From NCBI RefSeq assembly GCF_014652535.1, contig NZ_BMYZ01000001.1, forward strand, positions 1,116,001-1,180,000: a stretch of 64,000 nt of DNA, in the 5' to 3' direction. Shown here in pieces: positions 14,734 through 29,041 of the stretch. The notes beneath the pieces are model-generated. The model ran no database searches and was not told the origin of the DNA. It saw only the letters and a list, made by a program, of their open reading frames with translations. Each line of letters begins with the position of its first letter. The stretch's first letter is position 1. Origin of the DNA: Cellvibrio zantedeschiae (lineage in GTDB: Bacteria > Pseudomonadota > Gammaproteobacteria > Pseudomonadales > Cellvibrionaceae). The position numbers were made by a program, and so were the translations under genes.

Positions 14734-16557
14734 CTATTTTGCAGGCTTAATGGTGTTTATAACAATAGATGGGGTTAGCAGTTGCGGTAAAACCTCGCCA
14801 CGCTTGGCGGAACCGGCGGGGAACCATACATATAAAGGTACGCCGATTCGGCCATAATCCCGCAATAATTCCTTTATTTGTGGATCTGCGTTTGTCCAAT
14901 CGGCCTTTAAAGTTGCTACATTCAGCTCATCAAAAGCAGCTTCAACTTCTTCGCGGTTAAGTGTTGTACGTTCGTTAACTTTGCATGTGATGCACCAATC
15001 TGCTGTGACATCGATAAAAACCGGGCGCCCTTGGGCGCGCAGTTCGGCCAACAGTTCAGGAGTGTAAGCGATCCAGCGCTTATCAGCCTCGCCATTTTTC
15101 ATGGCTTTATAAGGAATGAATATCGCCAATAAAAGCGCAGCTAAGGCAAGTGCGGTGTAAATCTTCTTGGTCCACCCACTTGTCGGTCTGCGATAAATCC
15201 AAAATGCAAATGCAATGGCGACAGCGCCTAAGCAAACGGCGAGCATCATTCCAGAGCCGGCTTGGTTGGTAAGTACCCAAAGTAACCAAATGGCACTTAT
15301 ATAAAGAGGGAAGGCGAGGAATTCCTTAAGTGTTTCCATCCATAAGCCCGGCCTTGGAAGCTTTTGTGCAAACTGGGGCAAAAAACACAGCAAAAGCAAT
15401 GGCACGGCCATGCCCACACCCAAAGCAACAAAAACGGCCACGCAAACATAGGCTGGTTGGGTAAGCGCGAAGCCCAAAGCGGCACCCATAAAAGGGGCCG
15501 TACAGGGGCTCGCCACCACTGCTGCTAATACTCCAGTGAAAAATGAACCTTGCAGGCCAGACTTTTCAGTAAGGCTTTGGCCTACTCCCATGAGTGAGCC
15601 GCCCACCTGGATATAGCCAGCCATTGCTAGTCCCATGATGAAAAACAGGTAGGCGAGTGCTGTGACTAGCCCGGGAGATTGCAGCTGGAAGCCCCAGCCA
15701 ACGGCTTGTCCGCCCGCTTTTGCAATGAGTAGCAAGCCGGCGAAGGCCGCAAACGAAGCAACTATGCCCAGCGTATACATGAGTCCATGCAGTTTAAGTT
15801 GTTGACCGTGGCTTTGCACAAGGCTCAATACCTTTATGGAAAGTACCGGAAAAACACAGGGCATAAGATTTAGGATAACGCCGCCGAGAAAAGCAAAAAG
15901 CAATGCTTGCCACGCCCACAGTTGATCTTCTTCAGCTGATGCTTGGGCCTGATCGGCTGATGTTGCACTCGAATCAGTAGCGACTCTTGGCTTATTTGCC
16001 AGCTTGGTAACCTCATTTTTGCTTGTATCTATATGGAGGTTTTCGGAATAGGGTGGGTAACAAAGCCCGGCTTCTGCACAGCCTTGGGACGTGACTTTTA
16101 GGTCAAATGAAGGTGTGTTTGCTGGAATAAAAAAATCTGCTGTCACTTCATGGTAGTGAAGCGTCATATCTTTACCGGCAAACTCATCGAACTTGGGTTT
16201 CCCCTCGGGGCTGAAAGTCGGTGTGAGCGCAACCTCGGGTGTTGCGCGAAACTTGAAGCGTTCCTGATAAAGATAGTATTTGTCAGCAATGGTCCAGGTC
16301 AGGCGCAGCTTTTTAGTGGTTGCATCGCTATCGCTAATCTCGGCGTTAAGTTTATAGGCTTCTGTGACAGGCAAAAAATCATCCTGTTTGGTGAAGCTCG
16401 CCGCTTTTACAGTGGAAACATTGGCATTGCCGGAGGGATTAAATTCTTCAGCAAAAGTAAAGGAACCTTGCAGGAAAATGACCCCCAACAGGATATGAGC
16501 AAATTGCTTAATTGCCGGGATTGAAAAATTGAATTCAGGGAAGCGAGAAGTTGGCAT
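14734..16557 (-). CDS. dsbD: Thiol:disulfide interchange protein DsbD
   Basis: Inner-membrane protein that moves electrons from cytoplasmic thioredoxin to periplasmic DsbC/DsbG. All three modules are present in 607 residues: a signal peptide (to FTFA|EE) and N-terminal alpha domain with the redox pair in GCAEAGLCY; an eight-helix membrane domain with cysteines in LMPCVFPVLS and VASPCTAPFMG; and a C-terminal thioredoxin-like domain with ADWCITCK (Cys near 522 and 525). ATG 16557 is preferred, with an AAGG SD, over an in-frame TTG at 16590. Pseudomonas also has dsbD/dipZ beside aroQ. Confidence 0.95.
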   Translation of the reverse strand: MPTSRFPEFNFSIPAIKQFAHILLGVIFLQGSFTFAEEFNPSGNANVSTVKAASFTKQDDFLPVTEAYKLNAEISDSDATTKKLRLTWTIADKYYLYQERFKFRATPEVALTPTFSPEGKPKFDEFAGKDMTLHYHEVTADFFIPANTPSFDLKVTSQGCAEAGLCYPPYSENLHIDTSKNEVTKLANKPRVATDSSATSADQAQASAEEDQLWAWQALLFAFLGGVILNLMPCVFPVLSIKVLSLVQSHGQQLKLHGLMYTLGIVASFAAFAGLLLIAKAGGQAVGWGFQLQSPGLVTALAYLFFIMGLAMAGYIQVGGSLMGVGQSLTEKSGLQGSFFTGVLAAVVASPCTAPFMGAALGFALTQPAYVCVAVFVALGVGMAVPLLLLCFLPQFAQKLPRPGLWMETLKEFLAFPLYISAIWLLWVLTNQAGSGMMLAVCLGAVAIAFAFWIYRRPTSGWTKKIYTALALAALLLAIFIPYKAMKNGEADKRWIAYTPELLAELRAQGRPVFIDVTADWCITCKVNERTTLNREEVEAAFDELNVATLKADWTNADPQIKELLRDYGRIGVPLYVWFPAGSAKRGEVLPQLLTPSIVINTIKPAK

Positions 16558-16760
16558 AATGGGCGCCTTAGTGAGCCGGTAAGCCGGCAAATTAAACCTA
16601 AAGTGGCATAAATTGCAGCAAGTGTAGTTGAGTCAAGAGTCTGGCTGCCAGTCATGTTTTGTTAAAATGGAATTCATTGGATCTTTGGTGTGCGTTCTGT
16701 GTCACAGGTTCAGCCACTGATATATCTTTTCCCAGAGCTTATTTATTAGAGAAAGTATTC

Positions 16761-17507
16761 ATGTTTAGTTTGTTATCTCTTCGTTGTGCTAGATCTTTCA
16801 TCAATGTGCGAATTCTCGGCTTAGTTGGTTTGGCAGCTGTTTTAGGTGCTTGCCAATCTACCCCCAAGCAAGAAGAGCAGCCCCCAGTTGCCCAGCAAGT
16901 GCAAGCCCCTGTTGAGCTCACTGCGCAACAAAAAGTGATTAACTCTCTGTTATCAGAAGCAGACTATTGTTTGTCGCAAAACAAACTGCTTAATCCTATC
17001 GCCGACAATGCCCACGACCGGTACCGTTCTGTGCTCTTGATGGACCCCGAAAATGAGCGCGCAAAACTGGGTTTGCAAACTATCTCCTTACGTTTTGTAG
17101 AGCTTGCCCGTACAGCAGCCAGACGCGGCAATGTTAGCGAAGCGCAAACCATGATCAAATATGCGCGCGGTGTTGATAATAATCCGGTTGTTCAAGATGC
17201 TGCCGAAACCTTGCGCAAACAACTGGGCACTATTCCCGCCGCAAAGCCTTACACACCTGGTGAAGGCGAAGTAGTCTTGGATGCTAAATTGCTGCAGGCG
17301 AAAGATCCCCAGATCACCACGCAGTTGGTAGGTGTTGCGCAAAAAGCAAAAAAAACCGATGAGTTTGTTTTGATTATTGCTCGTACGGATGCGGAAGGCC
17401 GTTATATATATCAACTATTGCGCAATGCAGTTCCCGGTTATTTGGTGCGCGGTGATATTAAAATTGGCTCACCTGCGCGTGTGAAGTTGGTTAAATCCCT
17501 GGATTAA
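16761..17507 (+). CDS. Lipoprotein with TPR-like module, unknown function
   Basis: Predicted lipoprotein of 248 residues; family not recognised. A hydrophobic signal (RILGLVGLAAVLGA|C) places the lipidated cysteine at residue 31. Residues about 58-137 form a helical-repeat-like module with the pattern EA-x4-Q-NKL-x2-P-x2-DNA, a near match to a module in MshN of this window (33481-34866). The C-terminal part (LIIARTDAEGRYIYQLLRN...DIKIGSPA) appears to be a separate globular domain. ATG 16761 is chosen because it gives a clean lipoprotein signal. It diverges from dsbD and is followed by the PCuAC-like gene after 27 bp. Confidence 0.8.
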   Translation: MFSLLSLRCARSFINVRILGLVGLAAVLGACQSTPKQEEQPPVAQQVQAPVELTAQQKVINSLLSEADYCLSQNKLLNPIADNAHDRYRSVLLMDPENERAKLGLQTISLRFVELARTAARRGNVSEAQTMIKYARGVDNNPVVQDAAETLRKQLGTIPAAKPYTPGEGEVVLDAKLLQAKDPQITTQLVGVAQKAKKTDEFVLIIARTDAEGRYIYQLLRNAVPGYLVRGDIKIGSPARVKLVKSLD

Positions 17508-17534
17508 TAATTCGATTATCTGCGAAGGCCTCTT

Positions 17535-17966
17535 GTGAATAAATTACTGAAAAGTCTTGCTTTGGTGATGATGATTTTTAGTGGCGCTCAAGCCGCGTCT
17601 GCGGCTGATGCAAACACGTCAGATATCAATGTAACCAATGCATTTTTTTACGTGCCTTTGGGCACAAGTAAAACCACTATGGCCTTTTTTACCATCACTA
17701 ATAATTCAAACAAGGATATTAGTATCACGGGCGTGAGTTCTAGTTTTGCCAAACAAATTCGGTTAATGCCAGAAGCCACTCTGTTGATTCCTGCACATCA
17801 ATCAGTCGCTTTGAAATCCAGCGGTCGCTATGTAGAAATTAATGATCTTAAAGCCAAGCTAAGCACCGGCGACGAGCTACACTTACTAGTAAGCTTGAGT
17901 AATGGGCAAAAGCTACAACTGGTTGCCCGAGCGAAAAGCGCTTACGATCAAGTACATGGCCACTAA
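17535..17966 (+). CDS. PCu(A)C-like periplasmic protein, copper ligands degenerate
   Basis: Secreted protein of 143 residues with a signal peptide (to SAA|DAN). The beta-sandwich resembles PCu(A)C/DUF461 copper chaperones (TTMAFFTITNNSNKDISITGVSSS ... LKAKLSTGDELHLLVSL). However, the family copper site, a His and Met before a second Met and a C-terminal H-x-M, is not intact: the first segment reads AKQIRLMPEA and appears shortened, and the GGYHxM segment reads SGRYVEI. A His-containing tail (QVHGH) is present. It may no longer bind copper in the standard way. GTG start with AAGG upstream. Confidence 0.7.
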   Translation: MNKLLKSLALVMMIFSGAQAASAADANTSDINVTNAFFYVPLGTSKTTMAFFTITNNSNKDISITGVSSSFAKQIRLMPEATLLIPAHQSVALKSSGRYVEINDLKAKLSTGDELHLLVSLSNGQKLQLVARAKSAYDQVHGH

Positions 17967-17977
17967 AGGTTGGCATC

Positions 17978-18070
17978 ATGAACCTATTGATAAGGTCTTG
18001 GGTTAAATGAGAAGGTCCTGGGTTAAATGAGAAGGTCCTGGGTTAAATGAGAAGGTCCTGGATTAAATGA
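17978..18070 (+). promoter_or_regulatory. Chain of four overlapping mini-ORFs upstream of the DUF2333 gene
   Basis: Four short reading frames occur in series: 17978-18010 (MNLLIRSWVK), 18007-18030 and 18027-18050 (MRRSWVK), 18047-18070 (MRRSWIK). Each TGA overlaps the next ATG as ATGA, and the last TGA overlaps the ATG of the DUF2333 gene at 18067. They arise from the 20-bp tandem repeat. Each unit carries AAGG about 11 nt before the next ATG, a possible weak SD. Whether they are translated is unknown. Confidence 0.55.
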
Positions 18071-18086
18071 AAAGGTCCTGGGTTAA
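17991..18086 (+). repeat. 20-bp tandem repeat, about five units
   Basis: Unit GAAGGTCCTGGGTTAAATGA repeats at exact 20-bp period from 17991, 18011, 18031, 18051 and 18071, with a few substitutions in the first and last units. The final unit runs into the first codons of the DUF2333 gene. No spacers separate units, so this is not a CRISPR array. Confidence 0.95.
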
Positions 18087-19176
18087 AAAATTTCACGTCA
18101 GAGAGTGGTGGGTGCGAAGCGTGCGCCGCGCTCGTGACGAATACGAAGACACCCAGAGCGATATAGAATGCGCCCGGCCAGAATATCGTTGGGCAATTTA
18201 TGTTTTTTTGATTTATCTCGCCGGTACAATTTGCTTAGGGATTTATTGGAGTTCTGCACCCGCAGAATTAAATGTCCGCGCCACTACCCAGCATCAATTA
18301 GCAACTTTAAAAATACCAGTTCAAACACAATGGCCAAAAGGTGTTGCTACTACATCTACTTTGATTAGCATTAGTGAAACTTTATTAGATAAACATGGTG
18401 GCTACCTAACCAACGATTTTTCTCCACCGGGTATTTGGCTTGATAACATGTCCCATTGGGAGTTGGGTGTTATAACCCAAGTGCGAGATACTACCCAAAT
18501 TTTGCGCTCGTCATTGAGTCAATCCAATCTCAAGCATGATTTGGATGTCGATCTGCAAAAAGCAGAGGTGCGTTTTAATTTTTCCGATAATTCCTGGGGG
18601 GTTCCTTCCACCGAATCCCAATACCGCTCTGGTATAGAGCACTTGCAGAAATACAATTTGCGTTTGTTACAAGCGGGCGCTGAGAATGCGCAATTCCATG
18701 TGGATGCTCAACATCTCAATGATTATTTGGCTGGTGTAGAACAGCGCTTAAAAATTTTATCGCAACGCTTAACGGCAAGTGTTGGTCCAAATCCTAATAC
18801 CGATGCATCGGCAATCTCCATGCGCCAAGCTAATGCTAAAAAAATTGTGAGTGCGCTCTACACTAAAACACCCTGGACGCAAGTAGACGATATTTTTTAT
18901 GAAGCTCGCGGTTCGTCCTGGGCGCTAATTGCTGTTTTACAGGCGGTAGAAATTGATTTTGTAGATGTATTGCAAAATAAACGCGCCCAGGTAAGTTATG
19001 AACAAATTATCCGTGAATTAAAACCCACGCAAGATCCAGTCTACAGCCCAATGATTTTAAATGGCGATGGATTTGGGTTTGTTGCCAATCATTCGCTCAC
19101 CATGGCGTCCTATCTTGCACGTGCGCAAGCAGCAATTTCAGATTGCCGCCGCCAATTGTTAGTATCAACTCCCTAA
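18067..19176 (+). CDS. DUF2333 family membrane protein
   Basis: Protein of 369 residues of unknown function matching the DUF2333 family of Pseudomonas relatives. A basic N-terminus (KKFHVREWWVRSVRRARDEYED) precedes a single membrane segment (WAIYVFLIYLAGTICLGIYW, about 38-57); the rest is predicted periplasmic and holds the conserved GGYLTNDFSPPGIWLDNMSHWELG. The start ATG lies in the last copy of the 20-bp tandem repeat, and the residues RSWVK are encoded again by each upstream unit, suggesting the original N-terminus was MNLLIRSWVKKF and was disturbed by repeat expansion. polB follows after 12 bp. Confidence 0.88.
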   Translation: MKRSWVKKFHVREWWVRSVRRARDEYEDTQSDIECARPEYRWAIYVFLIYLAGTICLGIYWSSAPAELNVRATTQHQLATLKIPVQTQWPKGVATTSTLISISETLLDKHGGYLTNDFSPPGIWLDNMSHWELGVITQVRDTTQILRSSLSQSNLKHDLDVDLQKAEVRFNFSDNSWGVPSTESQYRSGIEHLQKYNLRLLQAGAENAQFHVDAQHLNDYLAGVEQRLKILSQRLTASVGPNPNTDASAISMRQANAKKIVSALYTKTPWTQVDDIFYEARGSSWALIAVLQAVEIDFVDVLQNKRAQVSYEQIIRELKPTQDPVYSPMILNGDGFGFVANHSLTMASYLARAQAAISDCRRQLLVSTP

Positions 19177-19188
19177 TAAGTCCCTTTT

Positions 19189-21549
19189 ATGCCGAACGCA
19201 TTTCTATTAACTCGCCAATGGCGCGATACTCGTGAAGGTATTGTGCTGGATTTTTGGTGGGCAACAGAACAGGGCGCCTGTTGGACGCAAATCAATCGGC
19301 AGGAAATGGTATTTTTTATTTTGCGTAAAGACGCAGAAAAAATAGCAAAACTTTTAGCTGGTTTACGCGCCTGGCGTATGGCTGAAGTCGAACTTAAAAC
19401 TTTTCTTAACCTTCCTGTTAATGCGCTTTATTTTAAGAGCCAACGTGCTGCTCGCGATGCCTTGGAGTTACTCAAGCAAGCGAATCTGGATTTTTGGGAA
19501 TCAGATATTCGCCCTCATGAACGTTATTTGATGGAGCGATTTATTACGGCGGGAGCAACTATTGATCTCGTTGAGCCTGTAGATGGTTCCAAGCCAATAC
19601 TAAATCCCAGGATGACACCTTCAGAAACACGTATACCCTTAAAAATGGTTTCTCTCGATATAGAAACCTCTATGGACGCCAAGCAATTATTTTCCATTGC
19701 TGTTTGGGCGGAACATGATCGAAAAGTTTTTATGGTGGGTGAGGGTGAAAATTCTGAAGAGCACTCAGTAATTTTTTGCGCAACTCAAAAAGCTTGTTTG
19801 CAAGCTTTTTTGGATTGGTTGCATGTGTACGATCCCGATATTTTAATCGGTTGGAGCGTCGTGCAGTTTGATTTGTGGGTGCTGGAAACACTTTGCCAAA
19901 AAGAAAATATGACTTTTGAATTGGGTCGAGCCAAGCAAGCTGCGCATTGGCGACAAGAAGACGGTGACGGTCGCCGGTATATTATAATTCCGGGCCGTGT
20001 TGCGCTCGACGGTATTGAATTATTAAAGGCGGCAAATTATCGCTTCGAAAGCTACTCCTTGCAGTTCGTATCAGAACAGCTTTTAGATAAAGGAAAACTT
20101 TTGCAGGGCTCCGGTCGCGGTCACGATATAGCGCGGCTATTCGTAGAAGATAAATTGGCGCTTGCCGATTACAACCTGCGAGATTGTGAGCTGGTATGGG
20201 AAATCTTTGAAGATAAAAAATTGCTGCACTTCGCAGTCGAACGTAGCCAATTGACCGGATTGCTGCTGGACAGAATCGGTGGTTCGGTTGCTGCGTTTGA
20301 ATATTTGTATTTACCACGCTTACATCGTAAAGGTTATGTGGCACCTAATTTGGGTGAGCTGGAATCTGATGTGATTAGCCCGGGTGGTTATGTGATGAAT
20401 TCACGTCCCGGCATTTACGATAATATTTTGGTGTTGGATTTTAAAAGTCTGTATCCCAGCATCATACGCACATTTTTAATTGACCCTTGTGCGTTCTGGA
20501 TTGCGCAGCATGAGCAATTGCCCTCCGAGAATACTGTTGCCGGTTTTAACGGAGCATATTTTGCGCGAGAAGGACACATATTGCCGCACATTATTGAACA
20601 CCTTTGGTCTGCGCGAGATGTTGCCAAGCGTGAAAAAAATGCACCGCTCTCTCATGCAATAAAAATTATCATGAATTCTTTTTACGGTGTTTTGGGGTCG
20701 ACCGGCTGCCGTTTTTTTGATCCACGTGTATGCAGTTCAATTACCTTGCGTGGCCACGATATTATTCAACGCAGCCGCGATTGGATTGAACAACAAGGTT
20801 ACAGTGTTATTTACGGTGATACAGATTCACTCTTTGTTTGGGTAGAAAATAATTGTGTGGGGAAAACGCCCAAAAATAAAGAACAGTGTCAAAAGATCGG
20901 TGATCGTTTGGCGCGTGAGTTAAATCAGTGGTGGCAAGCGGTATTGAAAACGGAACACGCCATTAAAAGCCATTTGGAAATTCAATTTGAAACCCATTAT
21001 CTTCGCTTTTTGATGCCCACCATTCGCGGCAGTGATTTGGGTACCAAAAAACGTTATGCCGGTGTGATTGAGCATAATGGTGAGCGAGAGTTAGTATTCA
21101 AAGGTTTGGAAAATGTACGCACCGACTGGACGCGTTTAGCAAAAGATTTTCAAGAGCAACTTTATAGCAAGGTATTCGCGGGCGAGGACTATCTCGACTT
21201 TGTGCGCGAAACAGTCTCAGATGTACTTGCCGGTAAGCGCAATGATGATTTAATTTACAACAAACGTTTGCGCCGTCATTTACACGAATACGAAAAAAAT
21301 GTCCCGCCGCAAGTACAAGCTGCGCGCAAATACGTACAGCTTACCGGTAAGCCTATCAGGCGCGGCGATTGGATTGCTTATGTTATTACGACGAGCGGAG
21401 CTGAACCCATATCAGCGCAGCAAAGCCCTCTGGATTATCAGCACTATGTAGATAAACAATTAATGCCGGTAGCAGACAGTATTTTGCACTTTATGGAACA
21501 AAATATGACCGAGCTGGTCGATACGCAGATGTCTTTATTTGTTCATTAA
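19189..21549 (+). CDS. polB: DNA polymerase II (family B)
   Basis: Repair and translesion-restart polymerase with proofreading. At 786 residues it matches E. coli Pol II (783). Visible motifs are exonuclease motif I SLDIETSM (about 153-160), polymerase motif A LDFKSLYPSII (about 415-425), motif B region KIIMNSFYGVLGS and motif C YGDTDSLFVW (about 542-551) with both catalytic aspartates. It begins 12 bp after the DUF2333 gene, so is probably co-transcribed. E. coli polB is SOS-induced, but no LexA-type CTGT-N8-ACAG box is present immediately upstream. It abuts a tiny lipoprotein gene at its 3' end. Confidence 0.97.
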   Translation: MPNAFLLTRQWRDTREGIVLDFWWATEQGACWTQINRQEMVFFILRKDAEKIAKLLAGLRAWRMAEVELKTFLNLPVNALYFKSQRAARDALELLKQANLDFWESDIRPHERYLMERFITAGATIDLVEPVDGSKPILNPRMTPSETRIPLKMVSLDIETSMDAKQLFSIAVWAEHDRKVFMVGEGENSEEHSVIFCATQKACLQAFLDWLHVYDPDILIGWSVVQFDLWVLETLCQKENMTFELGRAKQAAHWRQEDGDGRRYIIIPGRVALDGIELLKAANYRFESYSLQFVSEQLLDKGKLLQGSGRGHDIARLFVEDKLALADYNLRDCELVWEIFEDKKLLHFAVERSQLTGLLLDRIGGSVAAFEYLYLPRLHRKGYVAPNLGELESDVISPGGYVMNSRPGIYDNILVLDFKSLYPSIIRTFLIDPCAFWIAQHEQLPSENTVAGFNGAYFAREGHILPHIIEHLWSARDVAKREKNAPLSHAIKIIMNSFYGVLGSTGCRFFDPRVCSSITLRGHDIIQRSRDWIEQQGYSVIYGDTDSLFVWVENNCVGKTPKNKEQCQKIGDRLARELNQWWQAVLKTEHAIKSHLEIQFETHYLRFLMPTIRGSDLGTKKRYAGVIEHNGERELVFKGLENVRTDWTRLAKDFQEQLYSKVFAGEDYLDFVRETVSDVLAGKRNDDLIYNKRLRRHLHEYEKNVPPQVQAARKYVQLTGKPIRRGDWIAYVITTSGAEPISAQQSPLDYQHYVDKQLMPVADSILHFMEQNMTELVDTQMSLFVH

Positions 21550-27436: not shown

Positions 27437-27928
27437 CTAAACTCTTGATTGAGGCAGTGAGACATCCAGCGCCCCCGTATAACCGAGCTGACGCCAGGCT
27501 TCAAATACCATAACGGCTACTGAATTAGATAGATTCATACTGCGGCTGTTAGCAACCATAGGAATGCGCAATACTTGATCCTGCGGAAGGGATTCGCGAA
27601 GGCTAGCCGGTAGGCCGCGAGTCTCCGGCCCAAATAAAAGGTAATCACCGGCCTGAAACTTCGGCTCACTATGATGTCGAGTGCCTTTGGTGCTTAGCGC
27701 AAAGATTCGGGCTGGCTGTTGTTTGGTCAGGAAGTCTTCCCATCCTTTATAAAGATGCAGCTCCTGCACTTCGGCATAATCCATTCCTGCGCGGTTAACG
27801 CTCTTTTCGTCCAGCTTAAAACCCAAGGGCTCAATAAGGTGTAACTGACACCCTGTATTCGCCGCTAAACGTATGATATTTCCCGTGTTGGGAGGGATTT
27901 CTGGTTCAAACAAAACAATATGAAACAT
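27437..27928 (-). CDS. trmL: tRNA (cytidine(34)-2'-O)-methyltransferase TrmL
   Basis: SPOUT-family (trefoil-knot) enzyme of 163 residues that 2'-O-methylates the wobble base of tRNA-Leu isoacceptors. It shows the YibK/TrmL hallmarks [35 protein letters not shown] and [26 protein letters not shown]. First gene of a minus-strand group trmL, mioC-like, fldB, mnmC. It diverges from the msh locus across 183 bp. Confidence 0.96.
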
Positions 27929-27984
27929 TTGGCATTTTTACCTTTTATGGTCTAAGGTCATGATAAAGGTTATGTTTGTACTCG

Positions 27985-28032
27985 CAATTATAAAGAAGAG
28001 TTATTAGGCAATTATAAAGAAGAGTTATTAGG
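27985..28032. repeat. Perfect 24-bp tandem duplication upstream of mshI
   Basis: Two adjacent identical 24-bp units (27985-28008, 28009-28032), each containing ATTATAAAGAAGAGTTATTA. They lie in the trmL/mshI divergent region, 79 bp upstream of the mshI start. Confidence 0.93.
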
Positions 28033-28111: not shown

Positions 28112-29041
28112 TTGAACTGGTTCGGTGCAAAATCGCGGCAAAACGAAGTCATCGGCGTTGAGTTTACAGCCGAAGGAGTAGCCTTCGCCCATATAAAACG
28201 CCCTGCAACCCAACAACCGCTTTTAAATCATTCCGAATTTATCCCCGTAGACAGCGGCCTGAATGCGGCTGATTTGCTTCGTTCCCGCCTTGCCAAGCTT
28301 GGGCTACAAAAGGTTCCCTGTAATATCGTTATGGGTACCGGAAATTATCAAATGTTATTGGGGGAAGCGCCTAAGGTTCCACCAGAAGAGCTGGCTGAAG
28401 CCTTGCGCTGGCGAGTAAAAGATTTGATTCAATTTCCCATCGCCGATGCAGTGCTCGATGCATTTCTGTTACCCGAAGATAGTGCGCGCGGCACCAGTCG
28501 AATGGCATACGCAGTGGTTGCCCAGCGTAATAATGTTGTGCAGCTGATAAGTCAGGCAAAAGAGGCGAGCCTGGATTTGCAATCAATTGATATCGCCGAA
28601 TTAGCGCTACGTAATTTAGCCCAAGCCTGCTGCGATACCAAACGCGGGATCGCGTTGGTAAAGTTGGGGCAGGGCGGTGGTAGTTTGCAAATCATTCGCG
28701 ATGGAAATGTATATCTGTCGCGCCAATTTTCGCTAGCTTATAACGCAGGTTTGTTAGATGACTTACCGGGCGATGCTTTGGTGCTGGAGCTACAACGCTC
28801 ACTGGATTATTTTGAGCGCCAAATGCGCCAAACTCCACCGAGTCACGTTTATCTGTGTGGCGAAAATGTGACTAGCGATAAGCTCACTCCAGAAATTCGC
28901 AATAGCCTCGCGGTAAAAATTGAGCTATTCAATGTTGAAGCCGGAATGCAATTTGGCGAGAACGTGCAAGAACACAGTTTGTTTTTGTGCTTGCTAGCCT
29001 TGGGTGCTGCCCTGCGTGAAGATGCGGTGGGAGCGGCTTAA
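28112..29041 (+). CDS. mshI: MSHA biogenesis protein MshI (PilM-like)
   Basis: First gene of the MSHA type IV pilus locus. The 309-residue protein resembles the actin-like PilM fold (VIGVEFTAEGVAFAHIKRP; DLQSIDIAELALRNLAQ; YLSRQFSLAYN; LELQRSLDYFERQM), a cytoplasmic component of the inner-membrane alignment complex. The TTG start is supported by AGAGG about 10 nt upstream and by the usual N-terminus MNWFGA. Its stop overlaps the next ATG (TAATG). mshH, which precedes mshI in Vibrio and Shewanella, is absent. Confidence 0.93.
   Translation: MNWFGAKSRQNEVIGVEFTAEGVAFAHIKRPATQQPLLNHSEFIPVDSGLNAADLLRSRLAKLGLQKVPCNIVMGTGNYQMLLGEAPKVPPEELAEALRWRVKDLIQFPIADAVLDAFLLPEDSARGTSRMAYAVVAQRNNVVQLISQAKEASLDLQSIDIAELALRNLAQACCDTKRGIALVKLGQGGGSLQIIRDGNVYLSRQFSLAYNAGLLDDLPGDALVLELQRSLDYFERQMRQTPPSHVYLCGENVTSDKLTPEIRNSLAVKIELFNVEAGMQFGENVQEHSLFLCLLALGAALREDAVGAA

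Follow-up and report, generated by a model that had tools for sequence, protein, structure and literature searches.

A likely frame-safe minisatellite expansion at the start of a DUF2333 gene

Introduction

In the 64,000-nt stretch of DNA analyzed here (the window), a DUF2333 gene begins inside the last of five tandem 20-bp units, behind a chain of mini-ORFs in which each stop codon overlaps the next start codon. How did a gene come to start within a repeat, and what does the repeat do to its expression? We consider it reasonably likely that the array is a lineage-specific, frame-safe minisatellite expansion, and that the gene is translated from the ATG at 18067 by a combination of reinitiation and direct entry. 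Rather than an on/off switch, the array is probably an accident that has been tolerated and perhaps tunes dose. The array itself, its reading frames, its absence from the relatives examined, the ancestral start position and the intact gene are matters of observation, and the argument below begins with them.

Structure of the array

As assembled, positions 17987-18086 comprise five 20-bp units in tandem, in register with the start codons (Table 1). TRF calls the repeat at 17988-18087, with a period of 20, 5.0 copies, 93% matches and a score of 172. None of the other TRF rows (24 in all, with a score of at least 50 and a period of at least 6) in 464 kb of the same genome, i.e., the window plus 20 further stretches, scores as high; the runner-up has 98. 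When the array is compared with itself at lag 20, 75 of 80 positions are identical, while 20 dinucleotide shuffles of the window gave at most 42 matches over lags 8-60. The initial annotation had assigned a single 20-mer to all five units; the count of five stands, and the exact 20-mer ATGAGAAGGTCCTGGGTTAA is confined to units 2 and 3.

Table 1. Positions and properties of the features discussed
Feature	Sequence	Positions	Strand	Remarks
Upstream ORF	window	16659-17507	+	no Pfam match; possible first gene of same-direction run
PCuAC copper chaperone-like gene	window	17535-17966	+	Pfam PF04314, 7.3e-14; directly upstream of DUF2333
AAGG, SD-like	window	17966-17969	+	8 nt before ancestral start 17978; same in G017
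Mini-ORF 1	window	17978-18010	+	MNLLIRSWVK, 10 codons; at the gene-start position of relatives
Repeat unit 1	window	17987-18006	+	TTGATAAGGTCTTGGGTTAA; TTG where units 2-5 have ATG
Repeat unit 2	window	18007-18026	+	ATGAGAAGGTCCTGGGTTAA
Mini-ORF 2	window	18007-18030	+	MRRSWVK, 7 codons
Repeat unit 3	window	18027-18046	+	ATGAGAAGGTCCTGGGTTAA, identical to unit 2
Mini-ORF 3	window	18027-18050	+	MRRSWVK, 7 codons
Repeat unit 4	window	18047-18066	+	ATGAGAAGGTCCTGGATTAA, ending GGATTAA
Mini-ORF 4	window	18047-18070	+	MRRSWIK, 7 codons; its AAGG 11 nt before gene ATG 18067
Repeat unit 5	window	18067-18086	+	ATGAAAAGGTCCTGGGTTAA, beginning ATGAAAAGG; holds start codon of DUF2333 gene
DUF2333 gene	window	18067-19176	+	369 aa; Pfam PF10095, 1.2e-118
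DNA polymerase II-type family B polymerase gene (polB)	window	19189-21549	+	Pfam, 1.3e-42
PrdB/GrdB-like gene	L141	103-1029	-	three ATGA-linked 20-bp units before start; Pfam GRDB, selenoprotein B type
FlgT gene	L151			Pfam
DUF6586-like gene	L159			Pfam, below gathering score
Ladder before zinc-binding dehydrogenase gene (Pfam)	L190	1505-1589	-	five 17-bp units: MKGVEL, MKKAEL, MKKVEL, MKKVEL, MKGAEL
Pyrroline-5-carboxylate reductase (ProC) gene	L193			Pfam; ORF starts 11 nt past last in-phase ATG

Among 144 family genomes, the unit forms an array in one; 13 others contain one site each, with 2 mismatches. Since the array form is confined to the window's genome within this set, a dispersed repeat was rejected. 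RNA structure was likewise rejected as an explanation of the array, the folding of 17960-18120 being no better than that of shuffles (z = -0.23). An internal promoter or terminator was rejected because both scans came up empty within the array: there are no sigma70-like promoter sites in 16500-19300, versus 5.0 expected from shuffles, and all four terminator-like sites found lie outside the array.

The mini-ORFs are 24-33 nt long and are joined by four ATGA overlaps, in which the TGA of each shares bases with the next ATG, the last of these being 18067. The description of the mini-ORFs as 7-codon peptides with overlapping stops and starts was thus accurate for the overlaps, which are real, and inaccurate for mini-ORF 1 (Table 1). 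All four ATGA junctions show the stop/start overlap (4 or 1 nt) that marks termination-reinitiation coupling.

A 20-bp unit is 2 mod 3, meaning that the frame shifts with each unit; the ATG of the last unit stays in the DUF2333 frame. Gain or loss of whole units keeps the gene in frame because this last ATG travels with the array. By frame arithmetic, the gene is never closed at any whole unit number, and with only unit 1 left, the ORF from 17978 would continue into the gene (MNLLIRSWVKKF). On/off phase variation by frame was therefore rejected, leaving a graded effect as the only option: copy number could only grade DUF2333 expression. The proposal of a contingency-like locus fails on this point; a tandem repeat is present at the 5′ end of the gene, and whole-unit changes never put the DUF2333 gene out of frame, so that on/off switching by frame is absent.

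Origin of the displaced start

In a comparison set of one genome per species, the five closest same-genus relatives (G017, G003, G005, G020 and G006) have a DUF2333 gene without the repeat. Their gene starts lie 11-12 bases after the PCuAC stop, and the window's ATG at 17978 lies 11 bases after it. G017 (78% protein identity) shares with the window the SD-like AAAGGTTGG and a CCTATT after the start codon. On this comparison, we take the ATG of mini-ORF 1 (17978) to be the ancestral DUF2333 start, since displaced inward, because the five nearest same-genus relatives begin the gene there, repeat-free. The earlier suggestion that the gene once began at the first mini-ORF is thereby upheld, and the expansion looks specific to the window's lineage.

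Units 2-5 begin with A, whereas unit 1 and, in an ungapped reading, G017 have T at that position; the in-unit ATG is therefore probably derived. The number of residues before the conserved RDEYE block ranges from 15 to 20 in the five relatives and is 22 in the window protein. N-terminal length thus varies, and the stretch therefore tolerates change.

These observations suggest a sequence of events. Twenty base pairs lying shortly after the DUF2333 start codon would have been duplicated in tandem in the window's lineage. A T-to-A change would have converted the TTG at the head of a unit to ATG, and the changed unit would then have been copied further, if we have the order of mutations right. 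The old start at 17978 would now drive just a 10-codon mini-ORF, with the gene beginning in the last unit. The divergence of unit 1 from the other units could reflect older, more complex events. If this account is correct, the locus shows inward movement of a start codon by tandem duplication, with the gene retained.

A leader peptide with a sensed sequence was also considered. No peptide resembling the window's was found in any of the five nearest relatives, i.e., the conservation expected of a leader-peptide attenuator is missing among them, and the candidate was rejected. In one relative, G020, one linked ORF of unrelated sequence (MAANRFTS) precedes the DUF2333 gene.

The DUF2333 gene and its neighbors

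The labels DUF2333 and DNA polymerase B, first assigned by eye, agree with the Pfam searches (Table 1); the PF10095 match scores 396 bits, versus a gathering score of 22. Nine of 21 genus genomes have a DUF2333 match. PCuAC is present in the same nine, directly upstream in 9/9, and both lack a match in the remaining 12/21. The polB gene is present in 21/21 and adjoins DUF2333 in 6/9; the steadier pair in the genus is therefore PCuAC-DUF2333, not DUF2333-polB. The fact that PCuAC and DUF2333 matches come and go together suggests a shared function.

For the window DUF2333 gene versus that of G017, dN/dS is 0.10 (dN 0.13, dS 1.31; 348 codons, one pair). This ratio points to a protein kept by long-term purifying selection, and it may mostly cover time before the array arose, so that it would hardly register a recent loss of expression. 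Among Alteromonadaceae matches, a DUF2333 gene of 47% identity (L064) occurs in a Klebsiella pneumoniae MAG record, which is possibly mislabelled.

Translation through the array

The frames support the earlier claim that translation of DUF2333 now requires reinitiation or direct entry at 18067. Ribosomes entering at 17978 or at any unit could pass down the ladder by termination-reinitiation, and others would enter directly at 18067 via the AAGG of unit 4. The presumed old SD, the AAGG 8 nt ahead of 17978, has stayed intact. An AAGG lies 11 nt upstream of each in-array ATG (TAAGG for 18007), which makes the SD match 5 nt long for 18007 and no more than 4 nt for the other ATGs, 18067 included. 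In the same scan, 128 of 209 ORFs from the genome sample (at least 250 aa, taken from the first ATG, starts uncurated) lack an SD match of at least 4; weak SDs are therefore not unusual in this genome. Codons 2-3 of three mini-ORFs are AGA AGG, which are rare codons in the window genome sample (2.26 and 1.37 per thousand, respectively, versus 23.3 for CGC).

In overlap and length, the mini-ORFs resemble published cases of coupling. That work supports coupling by termination-reinitiation in ATGA-overlap geometry, and SD removal led to less reinitiation in four of five cases (PMC6728339; PMC10666635). The array would be near-neutral, tolerated because it is frame-safe: some start for the gene remains at any unit number.

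Similar ladders in other genomes

A stronger claim is that the array is a copy-number rheostat, in which frequent gain and loss of units adaptively grades DUF2333 output. Either reinitiation would be below 1 per step, with each unit lowering output as an attenuator, or coupling would be near 1 and each unit would be an extra entry site, with output rising as the ladder lengthens. Recent slippage would account for the identity of units 2 and 3; an AAGG precedes every in-array ATG at the same distance; the ATGA geometry is suited to coupling; and similar tandem ladders stand before GrdB/PrdB-like, FlgT, DUF6586-like, zinc dehydrogenase and ProC genes elsewhere. We nonetheless think such a device unlikely, on the strength of two comparisons.

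The first comparison concerns period. Four ATGA motifs at fixed spacing were sought in the same 390 order genomes, and matches were found in 19 genomes for spacing 20, 19 for spacing 17, 14 for spacing 19 and 122 for spacing 18; the last, swamped by coding repeats, was left out of the array analysis. Merging duplicates among the matches listed gave 18, 22 and 18 arrays at spacings 20, 17 and 19, respectively. Those with mean neighbor identity below 0.75 outside ATGA, a cut-off chosen after the arrays had been seen, were removed as non-tandem (1, 4 and 3), leaving 17, 18 and 15 among the matches listed. An ORF starting at the array had a Pfam match in 4/17, 2/18 and 0/15 of these, respectively. 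Ladders with a period of 2 mod 3 are thus not significantly commoner at gene starts than the period-19 control among the matches listed (6/35 versus 0/15; Fisher one-sided p = 0.10, or 0.15 without the window). The six ladders counted, again among the matches listed, are those of the window, L141, L151, L159, L190 and L193. Four others (L153, L183, L184 and L208) were kept out of the count, as the ORFs behind them, of 124-369 aa, had no Pfam match; L149, L173, L212 (weak matches only) and L218 also stand before genes and were excluded, their units not being alike.

The second comparison concerns linked mini-ORFs, defined as ORFs that begin with ATG, span no more than 30 codons and end in a stop overlapping the gene start. 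One or two of these, without a repeat, precede the gene in 6 of 13 relatives of L190 (L286-L298), where the relatives judged are the 13 with a match from residue 1; L299-L304, with a later or unaligned start, were left out. One such relative, L293, has a single mini-ORF, MKVRKK, at the same 17-nt spacing. Linked mini-ORFs precede 1/8 genus DUF2333 loci (L003-L008, L017 and L100) and 3/22 other DUF2333 loci (L009-L031 without L017), and the one congener compared with L141 (L202) has none. Linkage by itself is therefore no sign of function. No tandem ladder occurs among the same 13 L190 relatives, 8 genus loci and 22 other DUF2333 loci. In the L190 ladder, every ATG from the second onward has an AAGG 7-9 nt upstream.

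In the genomes searched, tandem ladders thus recur and are absent from the relatives compared, with no significant preference for the coupled period. Tolerated duplications would explain this pattern no less well than selected devices. A general class of start-codon ladders (repeats of 3n+2 bp with an ATGA per unit) that would be recurring, frame-proof variable loci, in which copy number sets dose gradually and DUF2333 and the five others are independent cases, is decidedly improbable. Two warnings follow from the survey: mini-ORF ladders can arise without selection, and single linked mini-ORFs before genes are too common to mean much.

Two further observations were made in the course of the survey. 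The L141 gene has an in-frame TGA between two pieces that match TIGR04483 at 17-144 and 157-234, below the curated cut-off, the first piece also matching Pfam GRDB; this arrangement would fit a selenocysteine codon at the TGA. G484 contains several tandem arrays on a AGCCATGAGC core, with unit lengths of 17, 18 and 19 (L182, L193, L210 and further places). Some other genomes have similar cores, and this looks like a dispersed minisatellite family.

Other readings of the gene start

It is very doubtful that a downstream in-frame start, GTG 18112 or 18121, is used, with the array as leader clutter. GTG 18112 is in frame with DUF2333, a bulge-allowing duplex scan gives -8.3 kcal/mol upstream of it versus -6.6 for 18067, and the length before the RDEYE block varies; against this, 18112 lacks an uninterrupted SD match of at least 4, and an ATG upstream of the equivalent site begins the gene in the five nearest relatives. 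Least credible of all is a damaging accident that has left DUF2333 poorly expressed and decaying in the window's strain: the PCuAC-DUF2333 pair does seem dispensable, given that 12 of 21 genus genomes lack a match to either gene, and three mini-ORFs carry the rare AGA AGG, but the 369-aa reading frame is unbroken and matches the Pfam model in full, and four units retain an ATG that arose anew.

Relation to known systems

In the full-text literature, in which few subscription papers are covered, we came across no report of ATGA-linked mini-ORFs forming a tandem ladder where a gene begins; DUF2333 is mentioned by one paper there. The component parts, i.e., tandem repeats, ATGA coupling and minigenes, are already known. 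The systems described in the ATGA termination-reinitiation papers (Huber et al. 2019, PMC6728339; PMC10666635) share with the window the ATGA stop/start, the sufficiency of a very short upstream coding stretch and, less certainly, an SD-like motif in the upstream ORF; there, two real genes are joined once, whereas the window has four near-identical tandem mini-ORFs before one gene. In the work on minigenes, e.g., mg2 in axe-txe (PMC8708949), a few-codon ORF lies just upstream, as in the window, and affects translation of the next gene. Minigenes are described there as occurring singly or in twos, some bases from the gene, rather than as a tandem array.

Repeat-based contingency loci likewise carry a tandem repeat at the 5′ end of a coding sequence; unlike in those loci, unit number in the window leaves the gene frame unchanged. 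If copy number does vary, the locus would resemble a contingency locus with graded rather than on/off output. It also offers a natural series of 1 to n coupled starts on which the reinitiation achieved at each step could be measured. The TAACTGA heptamers of Beggiatoaceae (PMC4679880) are tandem repeats that hug start codons, as in the window; they occur at many genes and have no start codon in the unit, whereas the window has one locus, a 20-bp unit and a start codon inside it. Elsewhere in the window, a perfect 24-bp tandem duplication lies at 27984-28032, between the divergent ORFs 27437-27928 (-) and 28112-29041 (+).
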